64,000 bases of DNA from an uncultured Pedosphaera sp. (GTDB taxonomy: Bacteria > Verrucomicrobiota > Verrucomicrobiia > Limisphaerales > Pedosphaeraceae): assembly GCA_903918755.1 (NCBI GenBank), contig CAIXFN010000056.1:1-64000 (forward strand). Reading direction: 5' to 3'. Each line of letters begins with the position of its first letter. Positions within the stretch are counted from its first letter, which is position 1. Below are positions 22,363 through 41,631 of the stretch, one piece after another. The notes beneath the pieces were generated by a model, which was not told where the DNA came from, made no database searches, and saw only the letters and a program-made list of their open reading frames with translations. Position numbers and translations under genes: made by a program.

Positions 22363-22878
22363 ATGCCAGAAAACCACATCGGGGAAATCCGCATGACCGG
22401 ATTCAATTATGCGCCCGCGGGCTGGGCGCTTTGCAACGGTCAAATTCTTAGGATCCAAGAGTATCCGGCTTTGTTCACCCTCCTGGGTACGCGGTATGGA
22501 GGCGATGGGGTGAATACGTTCGCGCTGCCGGACTTGCGCTCCCGGGTGCCGGTCCATAAAGGTTTCGCTCCGGACCAAAATATTCATTACCGCCTGGGCG
22601 AGCGTGGCGGGGGAGAAACCGTTACCCTGCAAATCGCGGAGCTACCCGTCCATGCACATCGGGTGCTCTGCAACAACAACGTGACCGCCGGGAATCCCGC
22701 AGGCAAGGTTTGGGGCAAGACGACCGAAAACCAGTACAGCAAGGGAGCGTCCAACCAAACCCTGAACCCGGCTTGTCTCACCCCATCCGGGCAGGGCCAG
22801 CCCCATGACAATCTGCCGCCCGTTTCCGTCATCAGTTTTATGATTGCGCTAAAGGGATACTATCCGTCGGCGGCCTGA
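22363..22878 (+). CDS. Phage-tail-collar-domain (Mdp-type) protein 1
   Basis: A 171-residue protein with the tail-collar fold. It starts IGEIRMTGFNYAPAGWALC, then CNGQILRIQEYPALFTLLG, YGGDG and TFALPDLRSRVP, and ends with QGQPHDNLPPVSVISFMIA and GYYP. These blocks are the signature of microcystin-dependent-protein-like (MdpB) proteins, related to the receptor-side collar domain of phage short tail fibres. No signal peptide, as usual for this family. First of three tandem paralogues, preceded by the tandem half-site element. No other phage genes are present, so this is not a prophage; the bacterial role of Mdp proteins is poorly known. Confidence 0.93.
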   Translation: MPENHIGEIRMTGFNYAPAGWALCNGQILRIQEYPALFTLLGTRYGGDGVNTFALPDLRSRVPVHKGFAPDQNIHYRLGERGGGETVTLQIAELPVHAHRVLCNNNVTAGNPAGKVWGKTTENQYSKGASNQTLNPACLTPSGQGQPHDNLPPVSVISFMIALKGYYPSAA

Positions 22879-22931
22879 TCTCGTGAAGGCGCAGCTCGCG
22901 AGGCGGCCATGAACAAACATAGTCACAATTT

Positions 22932-23456
22932 ATGATCGAACCATTTCTGGGAGAAATTCAAATCTTTAGCGGCCCGGTAATCCCGAGGGACTGGATGCCT
23001 TGCGACGGACAAGTGCTGCCCATTCGGGAGTATGAGGCGCTGCACTCTATTATTGGGGCAACCTATGGCGGAAATGGGATTTCCACTTTTGCCCTGCCTG
23101 ACCTGCGCGGCCGCATCCCATACGGGCCGGGCTCCACCTTGCAAGCAGGGCAGAACATGGGTGAGGCAAAGCACCGACTCGCCGGGGCCGAGCTTCCGCG
23201 CCACACGCACCTGGCCGTGGCGAGTGACGCCAGGGGGCCGAACACCGCGGAACCCGGCGACCATTATTGGGTTGCGCAACCCGCAGAGGCCTATGCGATG
23301 CCGACGGGGACCGGGCCGACGATGGCCACCGTGGCAATCACCGCCACGGGTGGGGACCAACCCCACGAGAACCGACCCCCGTATCTGGCGCTCAATTTCT
23401 GTATTGCCGTGCAAGGCATCTATCCTATGCGTGGCCGAGGCAAGGCAGATAAATAG
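22932..23456 (+). CDS. Phage-tail-collar-domain (Mdp-type) protein 2
   Basis: 174 residues, same fold as its neighbours: LGEIQIFSGPVIPRDWMPCD, GQVLPIREYEALHSIIG, YGGNG, TFALPDLRGRIPYGPG, and the closing GGDQPHENRPPYLALNFCIA with GIYPMRGRGK. It lies 53 bases after the first collar gene and 12 before the third, so all three should share a transcript. The middle variable section (about residues 85-130) differs strongly from the paralogues, as expected if that region makes the specific contact. Confidence 0.93.
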   Translation: MIEPFLGEIQIFSGPVIPRDWMPCDGQVLPIREYEALHSIIGATYGGNGISTFALPDLRGRIPYGPGSTLQAGQNMGEAKHRLAGAELPRHTHLAVASDARGPNTAEPGDHYWVAQPAEAYAMPTGTGPTMATVAITATGGDQPHENRPPYLALNFCIAVQGIYPMRGRGKADK

Positions 23457-23468
23457 CCCACGAATGAG

Positions 23469-24026
23469 ATGGACGCTTACATTGGAGAAATTAGATTGTT
23501 CAGCGGCAACTACCCGCCGGAGCACTGGGCCTTGTGCCACGGACAGGAGTTACCGATCCAAGCGTATAACGTGCTCTTTGCCGTCCTGGGGACGGCATTT
23601 GGCGGCGACGGCAGAACCACCTTCGCGCTGCCTGACCTACGAGATCGAGGGCCGATGCATGGCGGCCAAGGGCCGGGTTTGAGTGTCCGCGAGTGTGGGC
23701 AAAAGACAGGGGTCGCCACCGTGCCCCTGATGGTTGACCAAATACCCTCCCACAACCATCTGGCCGCCGCCTGTTACACGCCTGACCCGGAGGAAGACCC
23801 TGGACTAAGCAACACCCCGGAAGGCAAAGTCTGGGCGGGAATCGCCCGCCCGACGGGCACTGCAGCGGAGGCCTTCTACCGAGACACGCCCGGAAGTGCG
23901 GTCGCGATGGCCGCGGCGGCGATTCAGCCCACGGGTGGCGACCAGCCGCATAATAATTTGGCACCATGTCTTGGGATTAGTTATATCATTTGCCTGGAGG
24001 GTGGGGAATTTCCAGTCCGCCCATAA
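23469..24026 (+). CDS. Phage-tail-collar-domain (Mdp-type) protein 3
   Basis: 185 residues, the longest of the three. It has IGEIRLFSGNYPPEHWALC, HGQELPIQAYNVLFAVLG, FGGDG, TFALPDLRDRGPMHGG and a late GGDQPHNNLAPCLGISYIIC. Its middle insert (CYTPDPEEDPGLSNTPEG) is acidic. An alternative ATG six bases upstream exists (23463) but is in frame and changes little. The operon ends here and an intrinsic terminator follows at 24111. Confidence 0.92.
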   Translation: MDAYIGEIRLFSGNYPPEHWALCHGQELPIQAYNVLFAVLGTAFGGDGRTTFALPDLRDRGPMHGGQGPGLSVRECGQKTGVATVPLMVDQIPSHNHLAAACYTPDPEEDPGLSNTPEGKVWAGIARPTGTAAEAFYRDTPGSAVAMAAAAIQPTGGDQPHNNLAPCLGISYIICLEGGEFPVRP

Positions 24027-24375: not shown

Positions 24376-24942
24376 ATGAAAAGAAACCACCGAGCCAGAT
24401 GGCTCACTTTCGCCCTCGCGCTAGGGGCGGGGTTCACCAGCCTCACGGGAAATGCGAGCGACCTAGAGCACAGCCGCAGGGCTCCCGATGGCGGACCTGG
24501 AATATTGGGGGGCAGGGAAGAGGGATGTTACCACGTCTCCCCTCCCCTCTTTGCGGGCCACGCAAATTGCCTGGGCTGGGGAGTCCCGAGCCTTGTCAGG
24601 CCCGCTGATCAGGCCTCGGCGGTTGCTGTTACAAATACCGGCTCGGTGATGGTTAACACCACGGGCAAGGAGGCCACTTTCGACTCTGAACTCGCTACGG
24701 AGGTTGATCGCAGGCGGGAGGTTGACTCCGTCCAGTGGAGGCAGCGGGACAAAGGTGCCATTATTGTTCCGGTTCCGAATATTGCAGCGGCCCGCCCCGA
24801 GGCGCGCCAGCCGATTCCCGCGACGATGCTGGCTTTCGTTTTTATGGCCAGCCTGGTGGGAGTGAGCGAGTTATCCCGGTTAGCCCGCAAGCTTCGGCAA
24901 AGCCGGGGGCGCAGGACTCCGGAGGTTGGGTTACTTATGTAA
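24376..24942 (+). CDS. Small exported protein with a C-terminal membrane segment and basic tail
   Basis: 188 residues, no family recognised. The N-terminus is a signal peptide (MKRNHRARWLTFALALGAGF, cleavage near ASDLE). The middle is polar and contains two Cys. Near the C-terminus IPATMLAFVFMASLVGVSEL is hydrophobic and is followed by a basic stretch (RLARKLRQSRGRR). Signal peptide, C-terminal hydrophobic helix and basic end recall sorting signals such as PEP-CTERM, but a PEP motif is not visible (IPAT instead). The tandem half-site element lies 99 bases upstream, and the signalling array converges from the other side. Possibly a surface-anchored protein co-regulated with the collar genes. 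Confidence 0.6.
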   Translation: MKRNHRARWLTFALALGAGFTSLTGNASDLEHSRRAPDGGPGILGGREEGCYHVSPPLFAGHANCLGWGVPSLVRPADQASAVAVTNTGSVMVNTTGKEATFDSELATEVDRRREVDSVQWRQRDKGAIIVPVPNIAAARPEARQPIPATMLAFVFMASLVGVSELSRLARKLRQSRGRRTPEVGLLM

Positions 24943-25031
24943 AAGGGGGAGGACCGGAGGGGTGACGGAAGCGCCGGCCGGCTAGAAGCCGGGACTCCAA
25001 ACCGGGCGGCGGGCTGGCCACGATGATGGTC

Positions 25032-26423
25032 TTACCGCAAACCATAGCGGTCCATGCGATTATAAACGGTTTTTTCGGTGAGACCCAACTTCTTGGCGGT
25101 AGCGGATTTGTTCCCGCCGCACAACGCCAAGGTCTGACGCAAACTGATTTCATCCACCTTGTCCGCCGACAAACCGCCCACTTGTGGTTCGGCCAGGTGA
25201 TCCCCGGGTTTCGTCGGGTGCAGCTTTTCCGGAAAGTCCTCCGGTTCCAAGTGGTCCCGCTCACAGAAGGCGGCCGCCCGCAGCAGCACATTTTGCAATT
25301 CCCGCACGTTGCCCGGCCAGGAGTAGGCTTCCAGCAGAGCCCGCGAGGCGTCGGTCAACGCCAAGGAGGCTCCGCCCTGGGAGACGGCCCATTGCGCCAG
25401 GACGCTTTCCGCCAGGGGCGAAATATCCGGACGGCGCTCCCGCAAGGGAGGGATATTCAAATCGATCACGTTGATCCGGAAAAGGAGGTCCAGGCGAAAG
25501 CCCTGGCGCGCGACTTTTTCCTCCAGGTCCTCATTGGTGGCCGTAATCAGGCGGATGTCCGTGGTCAGGGAGGTCGAACTCCCCACCCGTTGGTAAATTC
25601 GATCCTGCAGAACATTCAAGAGTTTGGGCTGGAGCGGGAGGGGCAGTTGACTGATTTCGTCCAGAAACAAGGTGCCGCCATCCGCGGCCTCGAAGCGGCC
25701 CAAGCGCCGTTGCACGGCGCCGGAAAACGCCCCACGCTCGTGGCCGAAAAGTTCGGACTCAAACAACTCTGGCGACAATGCGGGGCAACTCGTGACCACG
25801 AATGGCCGGCGGGCACGCGCACTTTGCTCGTGGATCAGCCGGGCGACCAACCCCTTGCCCACCCCGCTCTCCCCCGTGAGCAAGATGGGCACATTCAACT
25901 GAGCAACCTTGCGGATGTTCTCCCGCAATTGCCGCGCCGCCGGCGAATCACCCAGGAAGGTAGCGGGGAACTCCGGGGCCGGTACGGGCGAGGGCAAGGC
26001 GGGCTTGACCGCCAGCGCCGGGTCCTTCCGGGGCAGCGATTGCATCAGCGCGAGGAGTCGCGGCAGGTCCAACGGTTTAGGAATGAATTCCAACGCCCCG
26101 GCTTGCACCGCCCGGACCGCCTCCGGGATGTGGCCCCTGGCGGACATCATGATCACGGGCAATTCCGGTCGTTTCGCCTTGAGGAAGCGCAGCACCTCAA
26201 ACCCGTCCGCGCCGGGCATTTGCCAGTCAATCAAAGCACAAAAAATATCCTGGTCTGCTTGCGCCATGGCTTCCCGGCCATTATGGGCCAGCACGGGAGC
26301 ATATCCGGCCGCACGCAAGCCGGATTGCAGCATGACGCGGAGCGGTGGTTCATCATCGGCAATCAAGACCCGCAATGGTCCGGCGGAGCGAGGCCCCTCC
26401 GGCGTAGTTAAATTAGAGTTCAT
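25032..26423 (-). CDS. NtrC-type response regulator (REC / AAA+ / Fis HTH), GAFSGA variant
   Basis: 463 residues from the ATG at 26423. Receiver domain residues about 16-130 with IADDEPPLR and the phosphoacceptor Asp66 in LIDWQMPG. AAA+ domain about 160-390: Walker A GESGVGKG near 184, Walker B GGTLFLDEISQLP, and a sigma54-contact loop that reads GAFSGA near 231 rather than GAFTGA, a conservative change. The C-terminus is a Fis-type HTH (NKSATAKKLGLTEKTVYNRM). Expected to be a phosphorylation-controlled enhancer-binding protein. It is a paralogue of the next gene upstream and the last gene of the minus-strand signalling operon. Confidence 0.93.
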   Translation of the reverse strand: MNSNLTTPEGPRSAGPLRVLIADDEPPLRVMLQSGLRAAGYAPVLAHNGREAMAQADQDIFCALIDWQMPGADGFEVLRFLKAKRPELPVIMMSARGHIPEAVRAVQAGALEFIPKPLDLPRLLALMQSLPRKDPALAVKPALPSPVPAPEFPATFLGDSPAARQLRENIRKVAQLNVPILLTGESGVGKGLVARLIHEQSARARRPFVVTSCPALSPELFESELFGHERGAFSGAVQRRLGRFEAADGGTLFLDEISQLPLPLQPKLLNVLQDRIYQRVGSSTSLTTDIRLITATNEDLEEKVARQGFRLDLLFRINVIDLNIPPLRERRPDISPLAESVLAQWAVSQGGASLALTDASRALLEAYSWPGNVRELQNVLLRAAAFCERDHLEPEDFPEKLHPTKPGDHLAEPQVGGLSADKVDEISLRQTLALCGGNKSATAKKLGLTEKTVYNRMDRYGLR

Positions 26424-26458
26424 AAGGCAAGGGTTGGAAATGGGCGAACCGGCCGGGG

Positions 26459-27868
26459 CTAGCGCATGCCAAAGTGGCTCAGCCGATTGTAAACGGTCTT
26501 TTCCGTCCAACCCAACCGCCGCGCGGTGGCCGCTTTGTTGCCGTCGCAAATTGCCAGGGTCTGCCGCAAACACATTCTTTCCACTTCCTCAAATGGCAAA
26601 CCGCCCACTTGGGGTTCACCATCGAAGGCTGTTTCGGTGGGCGGCCGCGCTACCGACTTCTGGTGAAACTCCGCGGGAAAGTGTTCCGGCTGCAACTTGT
26701 CGCCGTCGCAGAAGACGGTCGCCCGGAGCAGGACATTTTGCAATTCGCGCACGTTGCCTGGCCAGGCGTAAGCGGTGAGCAGACCGCGCGTGGCGGAGGC
26801 CAATTTTAAGGGCGGGGCCAGGGCGGTGGGGGCCCATTGCGCCAGCATGCTTTCGGCCAGAGGCAAGATATCCTCCCGCCGTTGCCGCAAGGGAGGAATC
26901 ACCAGCTTAATCGCGTTGATCCGGAAAAAAAGGTCGGCACGGAATTCCTGGCGCGCCACTTTCTCCACCAGGTCCGCATCGGTAGCCGTGATCAGGCGGA
27001 TGTTCGTGGACGGGGAGTTAGACCGGCCCAGGCGTTGACAAATCAGTTCCTCCAAAACATTCACCAGCCGGGGCTGCAACGCGAGGGGCAGTTGACTGAT
27101 TTCGTCCAGGAAGAGGGTCCCACCTTGCGCCATCTCGAAGCGGCTCAACGAACGCTGCCGGGCACCCAAAGAATGCCCCGGTTGGGGGACGGATTGTTCC
27201 GAGTCCGCCAGGTCCGCCAGCAGCGCCGAACTACTCTTGGTTATGAACGGCTGGGCGGCCCAGGTACTGTGCTGGTGGAGCAAGCGGGCCACCAGGCCCT
27301 TGCCCACCCCACTTTCACCCAGCAAAAGGATGGGGATATTCAGCGGGGCAAGCTTGCGGATATTCTTGCGCAGTTGCCGGATCGCCAGCGAATCCCCAAG
27401 GACAATATCCTTCAGTTCCAGCACCGGGGCAAACACCGGCAGGGCCGGCGGGGCAAGCGGAGTCGGGCCCATCCGGGGCAATGCCTGCAGCAGTGCCAGA
27501 AGCCGGGGCAGGTCCAAAGGCTTGGAAATGAATTCCGCAGCCCCGGCTTTAATCGCCTGGACCGCATCGCTGAGTTGGCCTGTGGCCGAAATAATGATCA
27601 CCGGCAATTCCGGGCGTTTCGCCTTGAGGAAGCGCAGCACCTCGAAGCCGTCCGCTCCGGGCATTTGCCAGTCAATCAAAGCACAAAAAATATCCTGGTC
27701 TGCTTGCGCCATGGCTTCCACACCATCCCGGGCCAGCACAACATCATAACCGGCCAGGCGCAATCCGGTTTGCAACATTTGGCGGAGCGGTGGTTCATCA
27801 TCGGCAATCAAGACCCGCAATGGTCCGGTCTCCAACTTCCGCTCCGGCGCAATTAAATTCAGGTTCAT
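26459..27868 (-). CDS. NtrC-like response regulator paralogue lacking the GAFTGA loop
   Basis: 469 residues, same order as its neighbour: receiver with Asp66 (LIDWQMPG), AAA+ with intact Walker A (GESGVGKG) and Walker B (GGTLFLDEISQLP), arginine-rich sensor region and Fis HTH (NKAATARRLGWTEKTVYNRL). Where the neighbour has HERGAFSGAVQRR, this protein reads PQPGHSLGARQRS. The GAFTGA motif, essential for sigma54 contact in this family, is gone, so it may bind DNA and ATP yet not open sigma54 promoters: a repressor, a hetero-oligomer partner or a sigma70-type regulator. The receiver is almost identical to the neighbour's over 28 residues around Asp66. Confidence 0.9.
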   Translation of the reverse strand: MNLNLIAPERKLETGPLRVLIADDEPPLRQMLQTGLRLAGYDVVLARDGVEAMAQADQDIFCALIDWQMPGADGFEVLRFLKAKRPELPVIIISATGQLSDAVQAIKAGAAEFISKPLDLPRLLALLQALPRMGPTPLAPPALPVFAPVLELKDIVLGDSLAIRQLRKNIRKLAPLNIPILLLGESGVGKGLVARLLHQHSTWAAQPFITKSSSALLADLADSEQSVPQPGHSLGARQRSLSRFEMAQGGTLFLDEISQLPLALQPRLVNVLEELICQRLGRSNSPSTNIRLITATDADLVEKVARQEFRADLFFRINAIKLVIPPLRQRREDILPLAESMLAQWAPTALAPPLKLASATRGLLTAYAWPGNVRELQNVLLRATVFCDGDKLQPEHFPAEFHQKSVARPPTETAFDGEPQVGGLPFEEVERMCLRQTLAICDGNKAATARRLGWTEKTVYNRLSHFGMR

Positions 27869-27884
27869 TGAGGCAAGGATTAAA

Positions 27885-29030
27885 TTACAGGCGGAGATCG
27901 GTCACCGCGGCCAAGGGCAAGGCCGCGGTGGGTCGAATCGGCAGAGTGAACCAGAAGGTGCTGCCCGGTTCCCGGGAGCTTTCCACACCAATAGCGCCGC
28001 CGTGAGCTTCCACGGCGAGCTGGCAAAAGGTCAGGCCCAAACCGGTGCCGCGCCGACCGCGATCGCCTTTGATTTGGACGAATTTATCAAATATTTTCTG
28101 GCGGAATTCCGGGGCAATACCCGGTCCGGAATCCCGCACTGCGATCCGGACGTGATCGGTGCCGACCAACAAAGACAATTGGATAATCCCATTCGGAGGA
28201 GAAAACTTAAGCGCATTATCCAACAAGTTTTGCAGCACGCGGTGAATGATCCCGTGGTCGAGGAGGAGGGTAATTTGCGCCGGACAATTTGTTATTTGAA
28301 TTTTAATGTCACCAGGTGATTGCTGAAGATGGACGACGACTTCATGGAGGAGCGCCACAAGGTCAACCGGACGGAGGTCGGGCTCCAACTGACGCGCTTC
28401 GGATTTGCTCACCACCATCAGGTCGGAAGTCAATCCCGTGAGCCGGTGAAGAACGGAACGGGCGCGGAGCAGATAATCCTGGGCGTCGGGGGAAAGATTG
28501 GCGGACTCACAGAGCTCGAGTAGTTGCAAATAACCATCGACCACGGCCAGGGGGTTCCGCATATCGTGGACAATCATTTGGGTGAGGTTTTCCCGGAGCT
28601 GTTCCAACTCCTGAAGGCGCTGGTAATTGGCGGCAATTTCGCGCCGCTGCTGGAGGATTTCCAAATGCACCCGAACCCGGGCCAAAACCTCGTTCGCCTG
28701 GTAGGGTTTGGTCACGTAATCCACCGCCCCGACGTCGAAGGCTTTGACTTTGTCCGTGGTATCATTCAAGGCGGTGACAAAGATGACGGGAATTCCCCGC
28801 AGGGTGGGCTCCAGTTTCAAACGCGCACAGGTCAAGAAACCGTCCATTTCCGGCATCATGATATCGAGCAGAATGAGATCGGGCGGGTTGAGCAAGGCGG
28901 ATTCCAGGGCACGCGAACCGGACAGAGCGGAGCGAATTCTGTAACCGATCGGTTGCAAAATGTTAGTGAGGAGCCGGAGGTTGTCCGGGGTGTCATCCAC
29001 CAGGAGGATTGAGGGGAAATGGGAGGTCAC
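27885..29030 (-). CDS. Receiver-histidine kinase fusion (REC-HisKA-HATPase)
   Basis: 381 residues starting at a GTG directly after the stop of the upstream kinase gene. Residues 1-125 are a receiver (VDDTPDNLRLL, Asp56 in LLDIMMPEMDG, KPYQANEVLARV). A helical linker leads to the H-box MIVHDMRNPLAVVDGYL with His155. The ATP-binding domain is canonical: N-box QNLLDNALKFSPP, G1 DSGPGIAPEF, G2 RGTGLGLTF. It therefore looks like an active kinase whose output is set by its own receiver. No membrane segment: cytoplasmic. Part of the six-gene array. Confidence 0.93.
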   Translation of the reverse strand: MTSHFPSILLVDDTPDNLRLLTNILQPIGYRIRSALSGSRALESALLNPPDLILLDIMMPEMDGFLTCARLKLEPTLRGIPVIFVTALNDTTDKVKAFDVGAVDYVTKPYQANEVLARVRVHLEILQQRREIAANYQRLQELEQLRENLTQMIVHDMRNPLAVVDGYLQLLELCESANLSPDAQDYLLRARSVLHRLTGLTSDLMVVSKSEARQLEPDLRPVDLVALLHEVVVHLQQSPGDIKIQITNCPAQITLLLDHGIIHRVLQNLLDNALKFSPPNGIIQLSLLVGTDHVRIAVRDSGPGIAPEFRQKIFDKFVQIKGDRGRRGTGLGLTFCQLAVEAHGGAIGVESSREPGSTFWFTLPIRPTAALPLAAVTDLRL

Positions 29031-32000
29031 TTAATTTGATTCAGGGGAGGCGGCGGGAGGCGGGAGCAACTCCAGAAGAGCGTCGGCATCAAACTGGTTG
29101 GCCAGGTAGCGCAATCGATGAGCGCAGAACGGGTGGGTCAAGGCAATCCGCTCAATCAATTGTTGGACCTGCAGAAAATCCCCGAGGGCAAGCGCTTCCC
29201 GAAGCTCGCCACACCAATCCGGAGACAAAGCAAGCTGGGCGCAGGCCGGCGGGTCGTCCGCGGGGGGGACTATGGCGCAGGCGGGCAGGTCGAGGAGGTG
29301 GCTGATTTTGGCAAACAATTCGCCAGCATTGACCGGTTTGGCAATAAAATCATCCGCGCCAGCCTGCCGGGAGGCGGCCTGGTCCGAGGTGTAGGCAGCG
29401 GCGCTGACGGAGATGATTTTCAGGGGCGCGGCCGGGAACTCCGCCCGCAGGCGAAGGATGGTTTCGTAGCCATCCATATCCGGCATGCGGGTGTCCATCA
29501 AAACCAGCCGGGGAAGCCGCCGGCGGCAGACGGTCAAGGCGGCGAGTCCGTCGGGCGCAGTTTCCACCAGGAAGCCAGCATCGGTGAGCATTTGTTGGAG
29601 CACATCGCGATTTTCAGGGAGATCATCGACGACCAGCACGGACACGGGCGGTTGTCCCGCAGGCAGGACGAAATGAGCCAAGCTGGGGCGGGCGACCGGC
29701 GACTCCGGGAAGCCTAATAGTTGCACCGGCACCGAAACGTGGAAGGAACTGCCAACGCCCAAGGTGCTGGTCAAGGTAATTTCACCGCCCATAAGCCGGC
29801 TAAATTGACGACAGAGGGCCAGTCCCAGCCCGATGCCCCGGAGCGATTTGCGGCCGGCCCCGGCCTGCTGAAATTTTTCAAACAATAACTCCTTTTCCGC
29901 CGGGGCAATGCCCGGGCCGGTGTCGCTCACGATGAGCGAAAGCTCCGGGCGGGAACTGGTCGACTGGACCAGGCTGACGTGGATCTCCACGCGGCCGCGC
30001 TCGGTGAATTTAAGGGCGTTGCCCAGGAGGTTAAATAAGATCTGACGGAGTTTGGTGACGTCGCCACGGATGACACCGAGAAGATCCGGAGCCATCACCA
30101 AAGCAAGGGAGAGCCTCTTATCGTCAGCCATCGGGCGGAAGAGACGGAGGAGATCCTCCAGCAATTCCGACAGGCGAAATTCCACGGGCTGGAGTTGCAT
30201 CTGGCCTGCCTCGATTTTGGCCAGGTCCAGAATGTCGTTGAGAATGGTGAGAAGAGCCTCGCCGTTGCGCATGATAATGGCCAGTTTTTCCCGGATGGGA
30301 AAAGTGATCTTCGCATCCCGCTCCAAAATCTGGCAGTACCCCAAAATGGCATTAAGCGGGGTGCGAATTTCGTGGGACAGGCTGGCCAAAAACTCACTTT
30401 TGGCCTGACTGGCCTGATTCGCCCGGACCATGGCGGCGGCCAACTCCCGGGCGACCCTTTTGGGTTCGGAGATATCGCGGATAAAGGCCCGGAAATGCAC
30501 GTAATTCCCCGCGCCATCAAAAACGGGTTGCACGAGCAATTCAACAGGCACCAGAGCCCCATCCCTGCGCCGGTATTCTTTCTCGAACCGGAAGGGCTTG
30601 TGGGAGGCCAGAGCGTTCGCCAGCAACTCCGCTTCGGCCGCATGGTATTCGGGCGGAGTGAGGAAATCCCGCCAGTTTAGTTTACCAATCAGCTCGGCAC
30701 GCGAATAGCCGGTCAATTCCTCAAAGGCCTTGTTCACCAATTGCAAAATCCCATTGGCGTGACCGATGGCAAGGGGCATGGCGGCGGTTTCCACGACGTC
30801 GGCCAGCAGGCGCTGCCGGGCAAGGGATTCCTGCAAAGCCGCCTCGATAACCTTGCGCTCGCTGATATCGGTGAGAGTTCCGATGATGCGCAGGACCTGC
30901 CCCGCGGCATCCCGGAGCATGATTTTCCCGCGCGACAACACGCACTTATACGAGCCATCCTGACAAAGTAAGCGGTGCTCCGACCGGAAAAACGGGCTGT
31001 GGTCCGCAAAATGTTCGGCCAAGCCGGCCTGGACGTTCGCCCGATCGTCGGGATGCACGCGGCGGATCCATTCGTCCGGAGAATCGCTGATTTCGCCCGC
31101 CGAGTAGCCGAGGATCTCAAGCCATTTGGGGGAGTAAAATAATTTCGTAGCGGACACATCCCAATCCCAAACCCCGTCCCCGGAGCCACTAAGAGCGTAA
31201 TTCCAGCGCTCCTCGCTCTGCCGCAAGACTTCCGTCTGGTCGGAAAGTTGCTGAGTTCGTTCCGCTACGCGCTCCTCCAACTCCCGGTTGCTCTGCTCCA
31301 AGGCGAGCTTGGCGCGGGATAATTCCAGTTCTGAGTTCTTAATCCGGGTAATGTCCCGCCCGGCGCCGACCGTGCCACAGACCTGGCCGTGATCGTCGAA
31401 GAGCGGGCGCTTAAAGGTGATAAACCAACGGGGGCTGCGGCCTGGCAGAGCGATTTGCTCCTCATATTCCAAAGGCTGGCCATTTTGGATGACCCACTGG
31501 TCAGAAATTTCAAATTGTCGCACTAGGTCAGGCGGGAGCGAATCAACAACGGTAGGGCCGGAGCGGTCTTGGGGATCAATTCCCAATAGTTCTTTCAACG
31601 CATGATTCGCCAGCAACAAGCGGCCTTCCCGGTCTTTCATCCAGACCGGATCGGGAATGTTCTCCAAAAGGACGCGCTGGCGGTTTTCCACTTCCGCCAG
31701 CGCCCGGGAGGCTACCCGCAAGTCATGGACATCATAACAATAACCAATATAACCGCCGAACTTCCCGTCGGCCGATTGGAAAGGCCGGCCATAATCGGTA
31801 ATCCAGCGATATTGGCCATCGTGGCGCCGCAGCCGGTATTCGAGATTAAACGCCTCGCGCCGCTGCAAGGCGGCCAGATATTGCTGTAGACAGGGCGGCA
31901 AGTCCTCAGGATGAACCCCTTCCGCCCAACCATTACCGGATTCCTGCTCCAAGGAGCGCCCGGTAAATAGGAGCCAAGTCTCATTATACCAATCGCAAAG

Positions 32001-32687
32001 CCCATCCGGGCCGGCCCGCCAGATCAGGGCGGGGGCATATTGCAGGAGGGTAAGATAAAAATCCCGGGCCTCCCGGTTCGCTTTTTCCGCCTGGCGGAGA
32101 GCCCGATCATCCTCAATCCCGTGCCAGGCGCGGCCGATATCCTGAGCCAGGTCATTGAGGAGTTCGATTTCTTCAAAATCCAAACCGTCCTTACCGGTAC
32201 GATTAGACTTAAACGTCAAGACCCCGAATAACCGGTCCTGACAGAGGAGGGGAAAGGCACCGATGGAGTTGAAATCCAAGGCCACAGTGCCTGCCCGCCA
32301 AGGCGCAAAACAGGGCTCATTTTGGACATTGTCAAAAAAGATGGGTTGGCGGGTGCGGAGTGCGACGCCACATGGCCCCAGACCGCGGGGGGAATCGTCC
32401 CAGCGAATATCCATCTGAATTACTGATTCCAGAGTTTCTCCGCTGGCGGCCAAGGGGATGATTTTTTGGGACGAGATTTCAGGCCGACCGATCCAAACCG
32501 CCAAAAAGCCGCGGTTTTGGGCCAGGCATTCGCACACCTGCTGCAGCATTGGCTCCAAATTAGGTTCGCGATTGATGATTCGTCCGATCTCCCGCATGGT
32601 TACCAGCAAAGGGTAATAGCGAACCATCTGCCCGCCAGTGGGAATCGCCCGGGGCAGTGGAGTTAAATGTTCGGACGGTAGGCTCAT
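29031..32687 (-). CDS. Large cytoplasmic hybrid histidine kinase (GAF-PAS4-HisKA-HATPase-REC)
   Basis: 1218 residues. Order: GAF domain about 35-195, four PAS domains about 210-330, 345-460, 490-615 and 625-740 (each with a WITDYG/GTLTDIS/FIRDIS-type end), HisKA with His772 in SLSHEIRTPLNAI, HATPase with SDTGPGIAPAE and GIGLGLALC, and a receiver about 1035-1150 with Asp1065 in LVLMDTRMPDMDG. No transmembrane segment, so it senses cytoplasmic signals through GAF/PAS ligands or partners. Its start overlaps the stop of the upstream gene by 4 bases (ATGA) and its stop abuts the next gene, so the three kinase genes are co-translated. The histidine phosphoryl can pass to its own receiver; an HPt partner is not in this cluster. 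Confidence 0.94.
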   Translation of the reverse strand: MSLPSEHLTPLPRAIPTGGQMVRYYPLLVTMREIGRIINREPNLEPMLQQVCECLAQNRGFLAVWIGRPEISSQKIIPLAASGETLESVIQMDIRWDDSPRGLGPCGVALRTRQPIFFDNVQNEPCFAPWRAGTVALDFNSIGAFPLLCQDRLFGVLTFKSNRTGKDGLDFEEIELLNDLAQDIGRAWHGIEDDRALRQAEKANREARDFYLTLLQYAPALIWRAGPDGLCDWYNETWLLFTGRSLEQESGNGWAEGVHPEDLPPCLQQYLAALQRREAFNLEYRLRRHDGQYRWITDYGRPFQSADGKFGGYIGYCYDVHDLRVASRALAEVENRQRVLLENIPDPVWMKDREGRLLLANHALKELLGIDPQDRSGPTVVDSLPPDLVRQFEISDQWVIQNGQPLEYEEQIALPGRSPRWFITFKRPLFDDHGQVCGTVGAGRDITRIKNSELELSRAKLALEQSNRELEERVAERTQQLSDQTEVLRQSEERWNYALSGSGDGVWDWDVSATKLFYSPKWLEILGYSAGEISDSPDEWIRRVHPDDRANVQAGLAEHFADHSPFFRSEHRLLCQDGSYKCVLSRGKIMLRDAAGQVLRIIGTLTDISERKVIEAALQESLARQRLLADVVETAAMPLAIGHANGILQLVNKAFEELTGYSRAELIGKLNWRDFLTPPEYHAAEAELLANALASHKPFRFEKEYRRRDGALVPVELLVQPVFDGAGNYVHFRAFIRDISEPKRVARELAAAMVRANQASQAKSEFLASLSHEIRTPLNAILGYCQILERDAKITFPIREKLAIIMRNGEALLTILNDILDLAKIEAGQMQLQPVEFRLSELLEDLLRLFRPMADDKRLSLALVMAPDLLGVIRGDVTKLRQILFNLLGNALKFTERGRVEIHVSLVQSTSSRPELSLIVSDTGPGIAPAEKELLFEKFQQAGAGRKSLRGIGLGLALCRQFSRLMGGEITLTSTLGVGSSFHVSVPVQLLGFPESPVARPSLAHFVLPAGQPPVSVLVVDDLPENRDVLQQMLTDAGFLVETAPDGLAALTVCRRRLPRLVLMDTRMPDMDGYETILRLRAEFPAAPLKIISVSAAAYTSDQAASRQAGADDFIAKPVNAGELFAKISHLLDLPACAIVPPADDPPACAQLALSPDWCGELREALALGDFLQVQQLIERIALTHPFCAHRLRYLANQFDADALLELLPPPAASPESN

Positions 32688-33913
32688 GGAAGGGCTAGAG
32701 GCGGTGATCTGTCAGGGGGACAAATTTGGTTGGCGGACCAGCCGGGGCGGGGCAGCCAGGCGCTGAGCGCAAGACCAATTGGCGCCAGGTTTTTTGCCTC
32801 CACCCGGCCGCCCAGCAAAGTGATAATGCGTTTGGCCAGAGGGGGAGCCAGTCCCAGGTCGCCCCCGGGAAATGCTTTACGGACGGCCAAGACTTCAAAC
32901 AAACCGGCCAAATCGGACTCGGAGAGGGCGAATTGGAGGGTCGTAAAGGTGATAACCACCTGATCCGGCTCGGAATGGAAGGTCACGGTGATTTCCCCGC
33001 CAGCTTCCGGGGGGACGCACTTCAAGCCGGTCTCCAGCAAACAAAGCAAGGCCTTTTGAAGCAACACCGGTTCGCCCACCACCTGGCCCAAGCCGGTGGT
33101 GGGGAAGGGCGGGAGTTTTTGACCGGTTGGGGCCAGGGCGATGGCGGAGGCCTGGACAAGGCGCATGACTGAATCGAGGTCCGCAATATCGCCCACCACT
33201 CCCCGCCCATTCAATTCTATCTGCCCCAGGAGCATGGCATCATCCAACAAACCCAGCAGCCGTTGCCGGGAAGACTCATAGATTTGGTGCAACTCGGTCA
33301 GGAAGGCAGGATCCGGCGGTTCGCCGAAGACCAAGTCGGTTGCCCCCAAAAGGCCGTTGAGAGGGGTGCGCAACTCATGGGCGATGAGACTCAAAAAGTC
33401 ACTTTTGGTACGACTAAGGAGCTGTAACCGATCATTGGCGATGAGCAACTCAGCGGTGCGGTACCGCACGGTTTCATCCAGACGCTCGTTTTGCTGTATA
33501 AGCGAACGCTGAAGGCGCATTTGGGTCAACTGGGTGTTGACGCGGACCAGGACTTCGGAGATGTGGTAGGGTTTGGTGATGTAATCCGCTCCGCCGGCGT
33601 CGAAGGCCTTGATCTTGTCCTCCATTTCATGCAGGCCACTGATGAAGATGACCGGGATCCCCCGGGTGCGTTCGTCCTCCTTCAGGTGGCGACAAACGGC
33701 ATAACCATCCATATCCGGCATGCGCGTATCCAACAGCACCAGGTCGGGAAGTTCCCGGGCAATGGAATGAAGGGCCGTCAAACCGCATTTCGCGGCGCGA
33801 ACCCTAAAACCGTTCAGGTGCAACAGGCCGGACAGCAATTGCAAATTCTCCGGGTTGTCGTCCACCACCATGATGCTGGCGGGGGGGGAGGGATTTGCCA
33901 GGAAAGTAGTCAT
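32684..33913 (-). CDS. Receiver-histidine kinase fusion with degenerate ATP-binding domain
   Basis: 409 residues from the ATG at 33913; a GTG at 33982 would add 23 residues. Receiver about 10-130 with VVDDNPENLQLL and Asp62 in LLDTRMPDMDG. HisKA with His179 in IAHELRTPLNGLLG. The C-terminal domain aligns in position with a HATPase but has lost its landmarks: the N-box region reads ALLCLLETGLKCVPP without the key Asn, the G1 box DxGxGI is absent, and only a GGDLGLAPPLAKRI remnant of G2 remains. It is probably a pseudokinase whose receiver and dimerisation helices scaffold or regulate the other kinases. First gene of the kinase operon, downstream of the third tandem half-site element. Confidence 0.85.
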   Translation of the reverse strand: MTTFLANPSPPASIMVVDDNPENLQLLSGLLHLNGFRVRAAKCGLTALHSIARELPDLVLLDTRMPDMDGYAVCRHLKEDERTRGIPVIFISGLHEMEDKIKAFDAGGADYITKPYHISEVLVRVNTQLTQMRLQRSLIQQNERLDETVRYRTAELLIANDRLQLLSRTKSDFLSLIAHELRTPLNGLLGATDLVFGEPPDPAFLTELHQIYESSRQRLLGLLDDAMLLGQIELNGRGVVGDIADLDSVMRLVQASAIALAPTGQKLPPFPTTGLGQVVGEPVLLQKALLCLLETGLKCVPPEAGGEITVTFHSEPDQVVITFTTLQFALSESDLAGLFEVLAVRKAFPGGDLGLAPPLAKRIITLLGGRVEAKNLAPIGLALSAWLPRPGWSANQICPPDRSPPLALP

Positions 33914-34335
33914 GGGAATTTCTTGGCCGGGGAACGGGACCCCAGATCGGTTAAGAGCTTGGTGTTTCGAATTTTCCGACACCGGACGTCAGATTTATGC
34001 ACAGCATTTATTACACCGAGAGTGCGTCGAAAGCCGGAAAAAGGACAGGGATTTGCAGCCAGCGTCGGCAAGATTGCAGTGAGCGTTGATTAGGCGTACG
34101 CTCAGGGTCTAAGATAGAACGGACCGGGACGGCGGGACGGGTTGAAGGCGGCATTTTATAGGGAAAATGGCATAATACATACAGGCTTCAGAATCCTGAT
34201 CAGGCACCGGGAATTTCGGCCAATGGGAAAGCTGGAAGGGTTCTCCGTTCCCCGAGCCGCCGAGCATGCGGAACAGGAGGGAGGGATAAATGGGCACATA
34301 ACCGGAGGGTCTCGGCCAGGCGATTCCCGGAAAGG
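33914..34335. other. Intergenic region between LytTR regulator and kinase operon
   Basis: About 420 bases with no convincing gene. Besides the tandem half-site element it holds an AT-richer patch near 34000-34015 (minus-strand TAATAAATG), which could be a promoter -10 region about 40 bases beyond the element. No terminator was recognised after the regulator gene. Confidence 0.4.
34054..34088 (-). promoter_or_regulatory. LytTR-type tandem half-site element, copy 3 (kinase operon)
   Basis: On the minus strand CAACGCTCACTGCA (34088-34075) is followed by CGACGCTGGCTGCA (34067-34054), 21 bases from half-site to half-site. It points to the kinase operon and ends 140 bases before the ATG at 33913, the same distance as copy 1 to the collar gene. 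It lies in the gap between the kinase operon and the LytTR regulator gene. Confidence 0.6.
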
Positions 34336-35310
34336 TCAAGCATGCTGAAAATTGACCAAAGACCGCTTCAAATTGGGCAGGGAGCGAACGCTGATTTCAA
34401 TAGGGTCGGGGAAACCCCGCAAATGGGCTTGCCGCCGGCCGGAGTGGTTTTGATCCCAATGCTGAAAAAAATGGAGATTGATAATGGCCGAACGGTGAAT
34501 CCGAACAAAGACGTTGGGCGGCAATTCCCGCAGCCATTCCTTCAATGACTTGCGAAACATCATTTTTTGGCCGTCGCCCCAATGAGCGATGGAATATTCA
34601 CTCTCCGCCAGAAAAGCCTTCACCTGGGAAAGTTTGACATATTCCTGGCGGGAGCTGCCAGTGGACAAAAACCCGCGGTCCTGGACCGGAGGCAGCGGGG
34701 CCGGGGACTTCAACGGCAGGTACGCTTCGCCCAGTTGGGGCAGGATCAGGTCAGCTAGCGCGGGAGATTCGCGGCGAAGGAAAGTAGTGACAGTGGCCCG
34801 CCATCGGGCGGGCAGGTTTTCGCCGCCGAGGTCGTTCACCAAGCCGCCAAATAAATCCAAGACTTGAGAAACCCGCCGGGCCTGCAGGTGGTTGATTTGA
34901 GCAACCCGCTCAAGGCGGGCCTGGATGGCGGCGAGGATTTCCACCAAGGGGGCGGGTTTGTAAAGAAAATCATCCCCACCCAGGTTGATGCTTTGCCGAA
35001 TCTGTTCCCGGGAAGTATTGCCGCTGAATACAATCAGGGGAATCTCTCGAAACCGGATTTCGGAGCGCAACCGGGCAATCACACCAAAACCATCCAAGGA
35101 AGGCATTTCCAGGTCGCAAATGATCAAGTCGGGCCGATGGGTAACCGCCAGTTGCAGGCCCTGGTTGCCGTCGCGGGCGGTAACCACCACGAAGCCTTTG
35201 CGCGTCAGGAATGTCGCCAACATTTTTAGGAGGTCGGCGTCGTCATCGATGAGCAGGATCCGCTGGGAGACAGGATTATTGATGTCGTTTTCTTTGGGCA
35301 AAGTCTTCAC
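34336..35310 (-). CDS. LytTR-family response regulator
   Basis: 324 residues from a GTG at 35310. Receiver about 15-135: LLIDDDADLLKML, Asp66 in LIICDLEMPSLDGFG, Lys in FLYKPAPLVE. A helical middle section (about 140-215) is followed by a LytTR DNA-binding domain about 222-320: VKLSQVKAFLAESEYSIAHW, then LKEWLRELPPNVFVRIHRSA and IINLHFFQH. LytTR proteins (AgrA, AlgR, ComE) bind pairs of 9-base direct repeats about two helical turns apart. Such pairs are present at three nearby loci, so this is the best candidate for their regulator. Transcribed separately from the kinase operon, as the first gene of the array. Confidence 0.93.
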   Translation of the reverse strand: MKTLPKENDINNPVSQRILLIDDDADLLKMLATFLTRKGFVVVTARDGNQGLQLAVTHRPDLIICDLEMPSLDGFGVIARLRSEIRFREIPLIVFSGNTSREQIRQSINLGGDDFLYKPAPLVEILAAIQARLERVAQINHLQARRVSQVLDLFGGLVNDLGGENLPARWRATVTTFLRRESPALADLILPQLGEAYLPLKSPAPLPPVQDRGFLSTGSSRQEYVKLSQVKAFLAESEYSIAHWGDGQKMMFRKSLKEWLRELPPNVFVRIHRSAIINLHFFQHWDQNHSGRRQAHLRGFPDPIEISVRSLPNLKRSLVNFQHA

Positions 35311-35579
35311 TGATTTGGGCGATCGTCACTCAATGGGACCCGGTCGGGAAGTGGGCCAAAATTAACGGGGGCCTTCACTGAGCACCGATGTTCGCAGACG
35401 ATCGTGATTTCTGCTGGAAAGGTTATGGAGCATAGCGGGGGGATTGCCAATTAAAAAGGCATGGCCCGAGGGAAAGACATTCCATCCTCTCGGGTAACAG
35501 ACACTTCTGGCAGACGGCGCAGCGCACAGCTGGGCGGGGCGGGGAATTCGGGCTGCCGGCCCGGCGACCGGATAATGCT

Positions 35580-36275
35580 TCAGTTTATTGTAGTCACTTT
35601 TTTCTTCGCCCGTTCGGACAGCCGGGATAAAACTTCGTCCGGCACGGCGCACGGGTAGCCGTTTTCGTAAATCGCGCCGCTGGAACCACTATTTCCGTTC
35701 ATCGTTTCGACATTGAGCACCAGCCGGCTATCGCCGTCGTACGCCCAAACATTGGATTGGCTCTCAATAAAGACAAACCACCCAGCCTGCGCCTTCCATT
35801 CACCCGGGCTGATCGTGCTACTCCAACTGGAAACGGGTGGCCCGTCGACTGCGCCAAATCCGCCCAGGCGGGACAAATTCAGAGCGGTCTCCGAAGTCCC
35901 AATCCGCCACGTGCCATCGGACGAAGCATTGGTGCCAAATGTGGTAATCAACAGCGGATGAAACACCGGCCCCAGCGCGGCCGTCGTCGCCGGGGTGGGA
36001 AGTTTCATTTTCCGTTTCATGAGAAACGTGTCGGGACCGGATAAATTATGAACGACCCCTTCAAATTCCCATCCCTCCCGGCGCAACCGGATTTTTTCCT
36101 CCGCACTCAACACCTGTTTAAGCTCCCAGGATTCGACGACCTTGCCGCCCCGTTGATCGGTCAAGGTCATTCTGCCATCTTTCGATTCGATGGTGTGGAA
36201 TGTGCCATGGCAACCAGCCAGAAGCAGGGCGCCGAAAGTCAGCATTCGCCAGAGCTTTTGGGGCGGCAGAATCAT
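35580..36275 (-). CDS. Putative lipoprotein
   Basis: 231 residues from the ATG at 36275. The N-terminus is a lipoprotein signal (MILPPQKLWRMLTFGALLLA then GC, lipobox LLAGC), predicting attachment to a membrane. The mature part is beta-rich, with no recognised family; near the end are WFVFIESQSNVWAYDGDSRL and a Gly/Ser stretch (NGNSGSSG). Stands alone, about 270 bases upstream of the LytTR gene. Function unknown. Confidence 0.7.
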   Translation of the reverse strand: MILPPQKLWRMLTFGALLLAGCHGTFHTIESKDGRMTLTDQRGGKVVESWELKQVLSAEEKIRLRREGWEFEGVVHNLSGPDTFLMKRKMKLPTPATTAALGPVFHPLLITTFGTNASSDGTWRIGTSETALNLSRLGGFGAVDGPPVSSWSSTISPGEWKAQAGWFVFIESQSNVWAYDGDSRLVLNVETMNGNSGSSGAIYENGYPCAVPDEVLSRLSERAKKKVTTIN

Positions 36276-40308: not shown

Positions 40309-41631
40309 ATGCCGTCTCATCCACCAGCCATTAAGAACAAGCCCGCCGGAGCTTATCGAGTGCTGCATACCGCGGACTGGCACCTGGGGAAGATGCTGGG
40401 GGAACACTCGCGTGAGGTGGAGCACACGCGGTTCCTGGAATTTCTTCTCCGCCAAATCAAGCAACTGGAGGTGGACGCGCTGGTGATTGCGGGGGATGTC
40501 TTCGATTCCGCGAATCCGCCGCAGAGTGCGGTGGCGCAGTATTACGATTTTCTTTCGGCGCTGTTGCGGCCCGGTGGTTGCGCGGTGGTGATCGTGGCGG
40601 GGAATCACGATTCTCCGGCGCATTTGGAAGCGCCCCGCCAGATATTGCGGGCGTTGGGAGCGCAAGTTATCGGCACGATGCCGGCGGAGGCGACCAAGGC
40701 ACTGATCGTGTTGCCGGACGCGACAGCGCCAAGATTGGTGGTGGCGGCGGTGCCGTTTTTGCGGGATCGCGACCTGCGGCTGGGGCAGTCGGGGCAAAGC
40801 GCGGTGGAAATCCAACACTCGCTGGTGGCGGGGATTCAACGCCGGTATGACGAGGTCGCGGCGGCGGCCCAAGCGTGGAAAGACCGCGGGGTGCCGGTGC
40901 TGGCCACCGGGCACTTGACGGTGGTCGGCTCCAAGACATCCGAGAGCGAGCGGGAAATCCATGTGGGCGGGCTGGGCGCGGTGGGAGCGGCGTGCTTTTC
41001 CCCGGTTTTCGATTATGTGGCCCTGGGGCATCTGCACTGTCCGCAGGCGGCCGGGGGGCGAGAAATCGTGCGCTATGCCGGGTCGCCGATTCCCTTGAGT
41101 TTCAGCGAAGCCACCGACATCAAAGCGGTGCGGATTCTGGATTTCGCGGAGGGCCGGCTGGTCCAGCAAACGGCGTTGGAATTGCCCCTGGTTCGCCGCC
41201 TCTTTCAAATCATCACACAACGGCACTTGTTGGAGGGCGTCCTGGCGGCATTCGCCCCGGTGGTCACGGAATTGCCGGCCTGGGTGGAACTGGTGATCGA
41301 GGATCCGGTGGCGGGCGAAAATGTGTTCGACCGGGTCCAGGAACTCACGGCGGATCGAACATTCCAGGTGGTGCGGGTAGTGGGAAAACACGGCCCCGGC
41401 CCCGCGGGACTGGCGGTCAGCGATGCCGCCGATGTGGCCGGCATCACTGATCTGCTGGCGGAACCGGCGAAGGTTTTCGCGCACCGACTGGAAGAGGAAA
41501 CCGGGCTGACGGAGCCCGAACGCACCGGGTTGACCATGGTGTTCCGGGAGTTGCTGGAATTGCACACGGAGCAAGCGCGCACCGCCGCGGAAAGCGGGCG
41601 CACCAAAAACCGTCCGGTGGTGAAGGCATGA
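40309..41631 (+). CDS. sbcD: Exonuclease SbcD
   Basis: 440 residues, the nuclease subunit of the SbcCD (Mre11-Rad50-like) complex that cleaves DNA hairpins and processes ends, using Mn2+. All metallophosphoesterase motifs are present: DWHLG, GDVFDSANPP, GNHDSPAH (about residue 102), GHLTVV and GHLHCPQ. The N-terminal MPSHPPAIKNKPAG precedes the first strand VLHTADWH; a start nearer that strand cannot be excluded. The stop overlaps the sbcC start (ATGA). Confidence 0.96.
   Translation: MPSHPPAIKNKPAGAYRVLHTADWHLGKMLGEHSREVEHTRFLEFLLRQIKQLEVDALVIAGDVFDSANPPQSAVAQYYDFLSALLRPGGCAVVIVAGNHDSPAHLEAPRQILRALGAQVIGTMPAEATKALIVLPDATAPRLVVAAVPFLRDRDLRLGQSGQSAVEIQHSLVAGIQRRYDEVAAAAQAWKDRGVPVLATGHLTVVGSKTSESEREIHVGGLGAVGAACFSPVFDYVALGHLHCPQAAGGREIVRYAGSPIPLSFSEATDIKAVRILDFAEGRLVQQTALELPLVRRLFQIITQRHLLEGVLAAFAPVVTELPAWVELVIEDPVAGENVFDRVQELTADRTFQVVRVVGKHGPGPAGLAVSDAADVAGITDLLAEPAKVFAHRLEEETGLTEPERTGLTMVFRELLELHTEQARTAAESGRTKNRPVVKA

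Follow-up and report, generated by a model that had tools for sequence, protein, structure and literature searches.

Does an NtrC-type response regulator without the loop that grips sigma54 still serve the cell, and is its function tied to the intact paralogue encoded beside it? The question is raised by two genes on the minus strand of the window, a stretch of 64,000 nt from an uncultured Pedosphaera sp. (GCA_903918755.1, contig CAIXFN010000056.1). According to the ORF list and Pfam, P1 (26459-27868, 469 aa) is a response regulator composed of receiver (REC), AAA+ domain and Fis-type helix-turn-helix (HTH) that lacks GAFTGA; P2 (25032-26423, 463 aa from the ATG at 26423) is its intact tandem paralogue. 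Both were above the Pfam cut-off for the receiver (PF00072), Sigma54_activat (PF00158), the AAA lid (PF25601) and the Fis-type HTH (PF02954), with a Sigma54_activat score of 144.7 bits for P1 versus 209.2 bits for P2. The alignment covers the whole length with 65 % identity, thus the original prediction of adjacent paralogues sharing receiver, AAA+ and Fis HTH holds. A stretch of 63 nt within receiver residues 14-92 is identical between the two genes (26459-27868 and 25032-26423). From the P1 stop to the P2 start there are 35 nt, and the paralogues are encoded together. Directly upstream of P1, on the same strand, are genes for a REC-HisKA-HATPase protein (27885-29030), a GAF-PAS hybrid histidine kinase with a C-terminal receiver (29031-32687) and a REC-HisKA protein (32684-33982). 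Successive genes from 33982 down to P2 overlap by 4 nt and are then separated by gaps of 0, 16 and 35 nt, therefore one message spanning this region is likely. A REC-LytTR response regulator (34336-35310, minus strand) follows 353 nt further upstream of the REC-HisKA gene. On the plus strand of the window are three consecutive related small proteins, presumably of the phage tail-collar or microcystin-dependent kind (22363-24026), and what we take to be genes for an SbcD-like nuclease and, after it, an SbcC-like ATPase (40309-44585).

The L1 region reads ESELFGHERGAFSGAVQRR in P2 versus DSEQSVPQPGHSLGARQRS in P1, and the loop stretch is ESELFGHERGAFSGA in P2 and DSEQSVPQPGHSLGA in P1. Where P2 has GAFSGA (codons at 25716-25733, minus strand), P1 has PQPGHSLGA. 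The predicted pair of readings, GAFSGA in one paralogue and PGHSLGA in the other, was thus confirmed; residues were replaced without insertion or deletion, and the AAA+ alignment contains no gap. Neither GAFTGA nor GAFSGA or GAYTGA occurs in L1 of P1. The degenerate region comprises residues 206-246 (27131-27253, minus strand) with the core DSEQSVPQPGHSLGAR at 27158-27205. The alteration is wider than the motif: the ESELFGHE flank of L1 is lost, and sensor I is an aspartate (Asp297, 26978-26980, minus strand) at a position that holds Asn in 104, His in 39, Ser in two and Asp in none of 145 relatives. For a survey of the loop, 149 distinct frames were compared, a number that includes P1 and P2 themselves and a piece of either one. 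The strict pattern G[AS][FY][TS]G[AS] was present in 132 frames; the 17 outside it were P1 and its piece, four GAFPSA frames and 11 mostly one-residue variants, e.g., GAFTDA. Removal of P1, P2 and their pieces left the 145 relatives, among which 74 columns were conserved to at least 85 %, 17 inside residues 206-246 and 57 elsewhere. P1 retained 7 of these 17 and 50 of these 57 columns, P2 15 and 53, respectively; the loss in P1 is concentrated in residues 206-246 (Fisher p = 2.4e-4). A profile search of the own genome yielded 20 matches, of which 18 were full-length AAA+ domains of this type and two weak, partial matches were left out. G-[AS]-[FY]-[TS]-G-A was kept in 17 of the 18 domains, with P1 as the sole exception. 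A loss of sigma54 itself was rejected as cause of the missing loop: the genome of P1 has one copy of rpoN, the sigma54 gene, and sigma54 was matched in 46 of the 50 genomes of the family that holds genus g116, discussed below. An artefact of sequencing or assembly is a highly improbable origin of the odd loop. The loop is known from a single draft assembly of 118 contigs (96.9 % complete, 2.6 % contamination), and no second genome had this loop. The changes, however, extend over ~40 codons with the frame intact and a normal third-position G+C (0.76 in L1), and further ones lie far off, in sensor I; base-calling errors would break frame and codon usage.

The remaining machinery is largely preserved. 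Both paralogues have the same Walker A (GESGVGKG) and the same Walker B (GGTLFLDEI), and the original prediction was right that these motifs remain in P1. Present are the Walker A K190, the Walker B D255 and E256, the arginine fingers R310 and R316, the sensor II R374 and the receiver phosphorylation set D24, Asp66, S94 and K116. From the aspartate in sensor I, ATP hydrolysis by P1 is probably poor. The recognition helix EKTVYNR is common to P1 and P2; among 21 rows of their clade only these two have YNR, the others YNK or YNM. AlphaFold2 models, which are monomers, had a mean pLDDT of 90.0 for P2, with 81-93 across L1, and of 85.8 for P1, with about 52 over residues 221-240 (L1) and the fold kept. 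The low L1 value may partly reflect the absence of any P1-like aligned row there. L2 of P1 was also poorly predicted; over residues 271-290 the pLDDT was 81-83 versus 96 in P2. The original prediction had missed the minus-strand orientation, the exchange of Asn for Asp in sensor I, the lost L1 flank and the state of L2. In structure, the P1 model came closest to NtrC4, NtrC1 and NtrX (Z scores of 26.9 to 28.1); the domain arrangement made the rmsd large, and single AAA+ domains matched at ~2 Angstrom. NtrX of Brucella abortus (5m7n/o/p; Z about 27) has the three-domain architecture of P1 and presumably lacks GAFTGA, but is only 32-33 % identical.

Regulators of the NtrC family without GAFTGA have been described before, and P1 belongs to this group. 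The literature ties GAFTGA to the contact with sigma54 (PMC3162934, PMC7057263), and one survey lists about 110 deviants with a defective motif in addition to some 4,970 proteins that were accepted (PMC3162934). P1 is thus very probably uncoupled from sigma54; without the L1 surface that grips region I of sigma54 it would be unable to activate alone, as had been predicted from the missing motif. NtrC architecture, the absence of GAFTGA and the kept ATP-binding motifs would place it with the sigma54-independent NtrC-type proteins. The NtrC proteins of Caulobacter crescentus and Rhodobacter capsulatus have the same domain order without GAFTGA and are reported at sigma70 promoters, where Caulobacter NtrC is described as both activator and repressor; Caulobacter NtrX is also stated to lack the motif (all PMC10274813). 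The Caulobacter NtrC loop is deleted by 8 residues and that of R. capsulatus by more, whereas P1 has kept the length and replaced the residues; the sensor I Asp and an adjoining intact sister also set P1 apart, no intact tandem sister being described for these proteins in the cited part. HupR, TyrR, DhaR, VpsR and YplP are further members of the enhancer-binding superfamily with a broken GAFTGA, and TyrR, DhaR and HupR are said to act mainly at sigma70 promoters (PMC3162934). Their loop defects vary and, unlike for P1, a tandem with an intact paralogue is not described in the cited part. DNA-binding mutants of the GAFTGA-less Caulobacter NtrC raise some sigma54-dependent transcripts (PMC12421884), therefore a loss of the loop need not end every effect on sigma54.

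A gene for a protein without its conserved contact loop might simply be a decaying duplicate without function. P1 is a singleton on a faster branch than that of P2, and several invariant residues, sensor I among them, are lost. Nevertheless, its frame of 469 aa has no stop, and the pairwise dN/dS of P1 and P2 is 0.39 (dS 0.66). Neutral simulation of P2 over an assumed distance of 0.33 changes per site, half of the pairwise dS, produced 8.2 stops on average and no open frame in 500 runs. The pairwise dN was 0.49 in L1 versus 0.19-0.21 on both flanks. When the changes were polarised against ten outgroups, P1 and P2 had 3 versus 5 in the receiver, 4 versus 1 in the linker, 5 versus 1 before L1, 13 versus 2 in L1, 9 versus 1 after L1, 3 versus 3 in the lid and 3 versus 3 in the HTH. 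This presents 27 versus 4 changes in the ATPase core (residues 156-327) and 13 versus 12 elsewhere (Fisher p = 0.0066); L1 compared to all other regions showed no significant excess (p = 0.19). Thus the excess in P1 affects the whole ATPase core and not L1 alone, while receiver, lid and HTH changed at the rate of P2. The confinement to the core argues for a specialisation of P1 rather than general decay, and with the open frame the latter was rejected as main reading. A functionless duplicate is accordingly improbable, and P1 is likely a functional protein rather than a dead one.

Phylogenetic trees built without L1 placed P1 and P2 as sisters (100/100) on a long common stem, with branch lengths of 0.36 for P1 and 0.21 for P2. 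Next to the stem were two regulators, one encoded on contig C14 of the own genome and the other by an uncultured Pedosphaera, a position that would assign the window to Verrucomicrobiota. No orthologue of P1 was detected in 320 genomes of the order, and the best match in a contig scan for orthologues was 49 %. With P2 as query, 384 genomes of the class held no closer relative outside the own genome. Several relatives with GAFTGA are encoded close to a histidine kinase that has an HNOBA (heme-NO-binding-associated) domain: on C102 and C14, in G073, G283, G013 and G295 and partly on the Pedosphaera contig, these kinases being assigned by Pfam or by similarity to such kinases; the domain on C14 is just below the Pfam cut-off (22.0 versus 23.4). 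This neighbourhood suggests an ancestral pathway linked to NO or redox state, a context from which P1 and P2 have departed. The loci with a GAFTGA-bearing relative near an HNOBA kinase are L142/L143, L144, L147, L148, L150, L139 and L025.

A separate loss of the loop was found within the order, in genus g116. Of 50 genomes in the family of G295, 19 match a GAFPSA protein at E 1e-100 or better, and 14 of the 19 g116 genomes encode one loop-less relative each. This protein is of the NtrC-type subfamily of P1 and reads GAFPSA in four genomes, GTFGSL in one and has no recognisable motif in nine. All 14 form a single clade (98/96) in a tree computed without the columns of L1, Walker B and sensor I and without the distant rows L026, L028 and L119. 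An ancient loss common to P1 and g116 was rejected: the sister P2 keeps GAFSGA and g116 has its own clade. The losses are independent, and g116 offers an analogy, not orthology. The nine strongly degenerate proteins have gone further than P1: their Walker B reads LD or LE in place of the Asp-Glu pair (DE), and sensor I is lost as well, while the Walker A Lys, the arginine fingers and the HTH are retained. They apparently present a pseudo-ATPase lineage in genomes that keep sigma54, which was matched in 18 of the 19 g116 genomes. Loci L157 and L161-L169 belong to G305 and nine further g116 genomes; Walker B of G305 has Ser-Glu. A pN/pS of 0.07 for the GAFPSA set and of 0.18 for the nine degenerate proteins (HTH 0.07, L1 0.36) indicates that selection maintains loop-less NtrC-type proteins in the order whether or not an intact relative is present. 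In 10 of the 14 genomes the loop-less protein is the only subfamily match at E 1e-100, thus there is no intact close paralogue to antagonise; G300 stands apart from these ten. A relative with GAFTGA is additionally encoded in three of the GAFPSA genomes, G294, G295 and G302; in G295 it lies ~10 kb away. The surroundings of three of the nine degenerate loci were read, and no kinase of the searched types was nearby.

The role of P1 has to be considered against this background. It may be an independent regulator, free of sigma54, that activates and/or represses at sigma70-type promoters, with P2 merely the duplicate from which it arose. The NtrC proteins of Caulobacter and R. capsulatus are published precedents, and the selected g116 clade, mostly without an intact partner, would speak for the same type of action; the independent origin of the g116 loss, however, reduces it to an analogy. 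The operon, the derived recognition-helix residue and the receiver common to P1 and P2 are moreover in excess of what a separate circuit needs. Searched with a consensus, 24900-35600 contained no site of the sigma70 type, with 3.4 expected by chance, a result of little weight. Sequence, gene neighbourhood and substitution pattern of P1 are observed; we infer as most likely that both proteins originate from the same message and can use the same binding sites, and that P1 tunes P2. P1 would accept phosphate on Asp66, bind ATP, present its arginine fingers and bind DNA via the Fis HTH. Produced from the same message and able to occupy the same sites through the EKTVYNR helix, it could enter P2 rings as a subunit that is unable to pull on sigma54; alternatively, it could tune P2 by occupying its enhancers.

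For the tuning of P2 count the single operon, the sister status, the equal rates in receiver and HTH and the YNR of only these two proteins. Against it are the isolation of P1 as a singleton on a branch longer than that of P2 and the g116 relatives, which persist without an intact close paralogue and would fit better to a stand-alone action. In addition, the window contained 12 sigma54 promoter matches versus 13.1 expected; without an excess, no target shared by P1 and P2 was found there. As main output of P1 we tentatively put first that it attenuates P2, either through mixed assembly or through shared sites, with the independent regulation at sigma70 promoters as a close second. The original prediction of a repressor, antagonist or hetero-oligomer partner fits the co-operonic position, the derived helix residue and the equal receiver and HTH rates, short of proof; it does not follow from the loss of the loop alone: for relatives without GAFTGA, the literature mainly describes an action at sigma70 promoters, and 10 of the 14 g116 genomes lack an intact close paralogue. 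Mixed oligomers of paralogous enhancer-binding proteins are known from HrpR/HrpS and VnfA1/VnfA3 (PMC9542535, PMC7057263). HrpR and HrpS are stated to keep all characteristic motifs and, in contrast to P1/P2, the portions cited describe a loop-less member for neither pair. In the literature on enhancer-binding proteins of Verrucomicrobia we found no paper on such a pair, though one may exist. Loop-less regulators and mixed pairs are both already described; less usual are the pairing of P1 with an intact tandem sister and the graded series of g116.

If P1 and P2 do form mixed rings, these would be a natural counterpart of engineered mixed PspF rings (PMC4132715) and could reveal the number of L1 loops that a sigma54 activator needs. 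A built-in attenuator, in which one operon supplies active and sigma54-blind subunits that answer to one kinase and share their sites, the output of sigma54 promoters being set by the ring composition, is a rather unlikely special case. If true, loop loss would be a repeated route in the order, taken by P1 and separately by g116, where it would run on until the acidic pair of Walker B was gone too. The order presents graded natural states, from GAFTGA via GAFSGA, GAFPSA and GTFGSL to no motif and then to Walker B loss, and the series can serve to ask how an AAA+ activator turns into a plain DNA-binding regulator in cells that retain sigma54. Silent differences between P1 and P2 were unevenly distributed: in receiver residues 14-92 they affected 10 of 65 codons for the same residue, versus 89 of 224 in residues 93-469 (p = 1.9e-4), with a boundary that was picked after the data were seen and a weak run-length permutation (407/20000). 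A gene conversion between the two genes in the first part of the receiver is possible.
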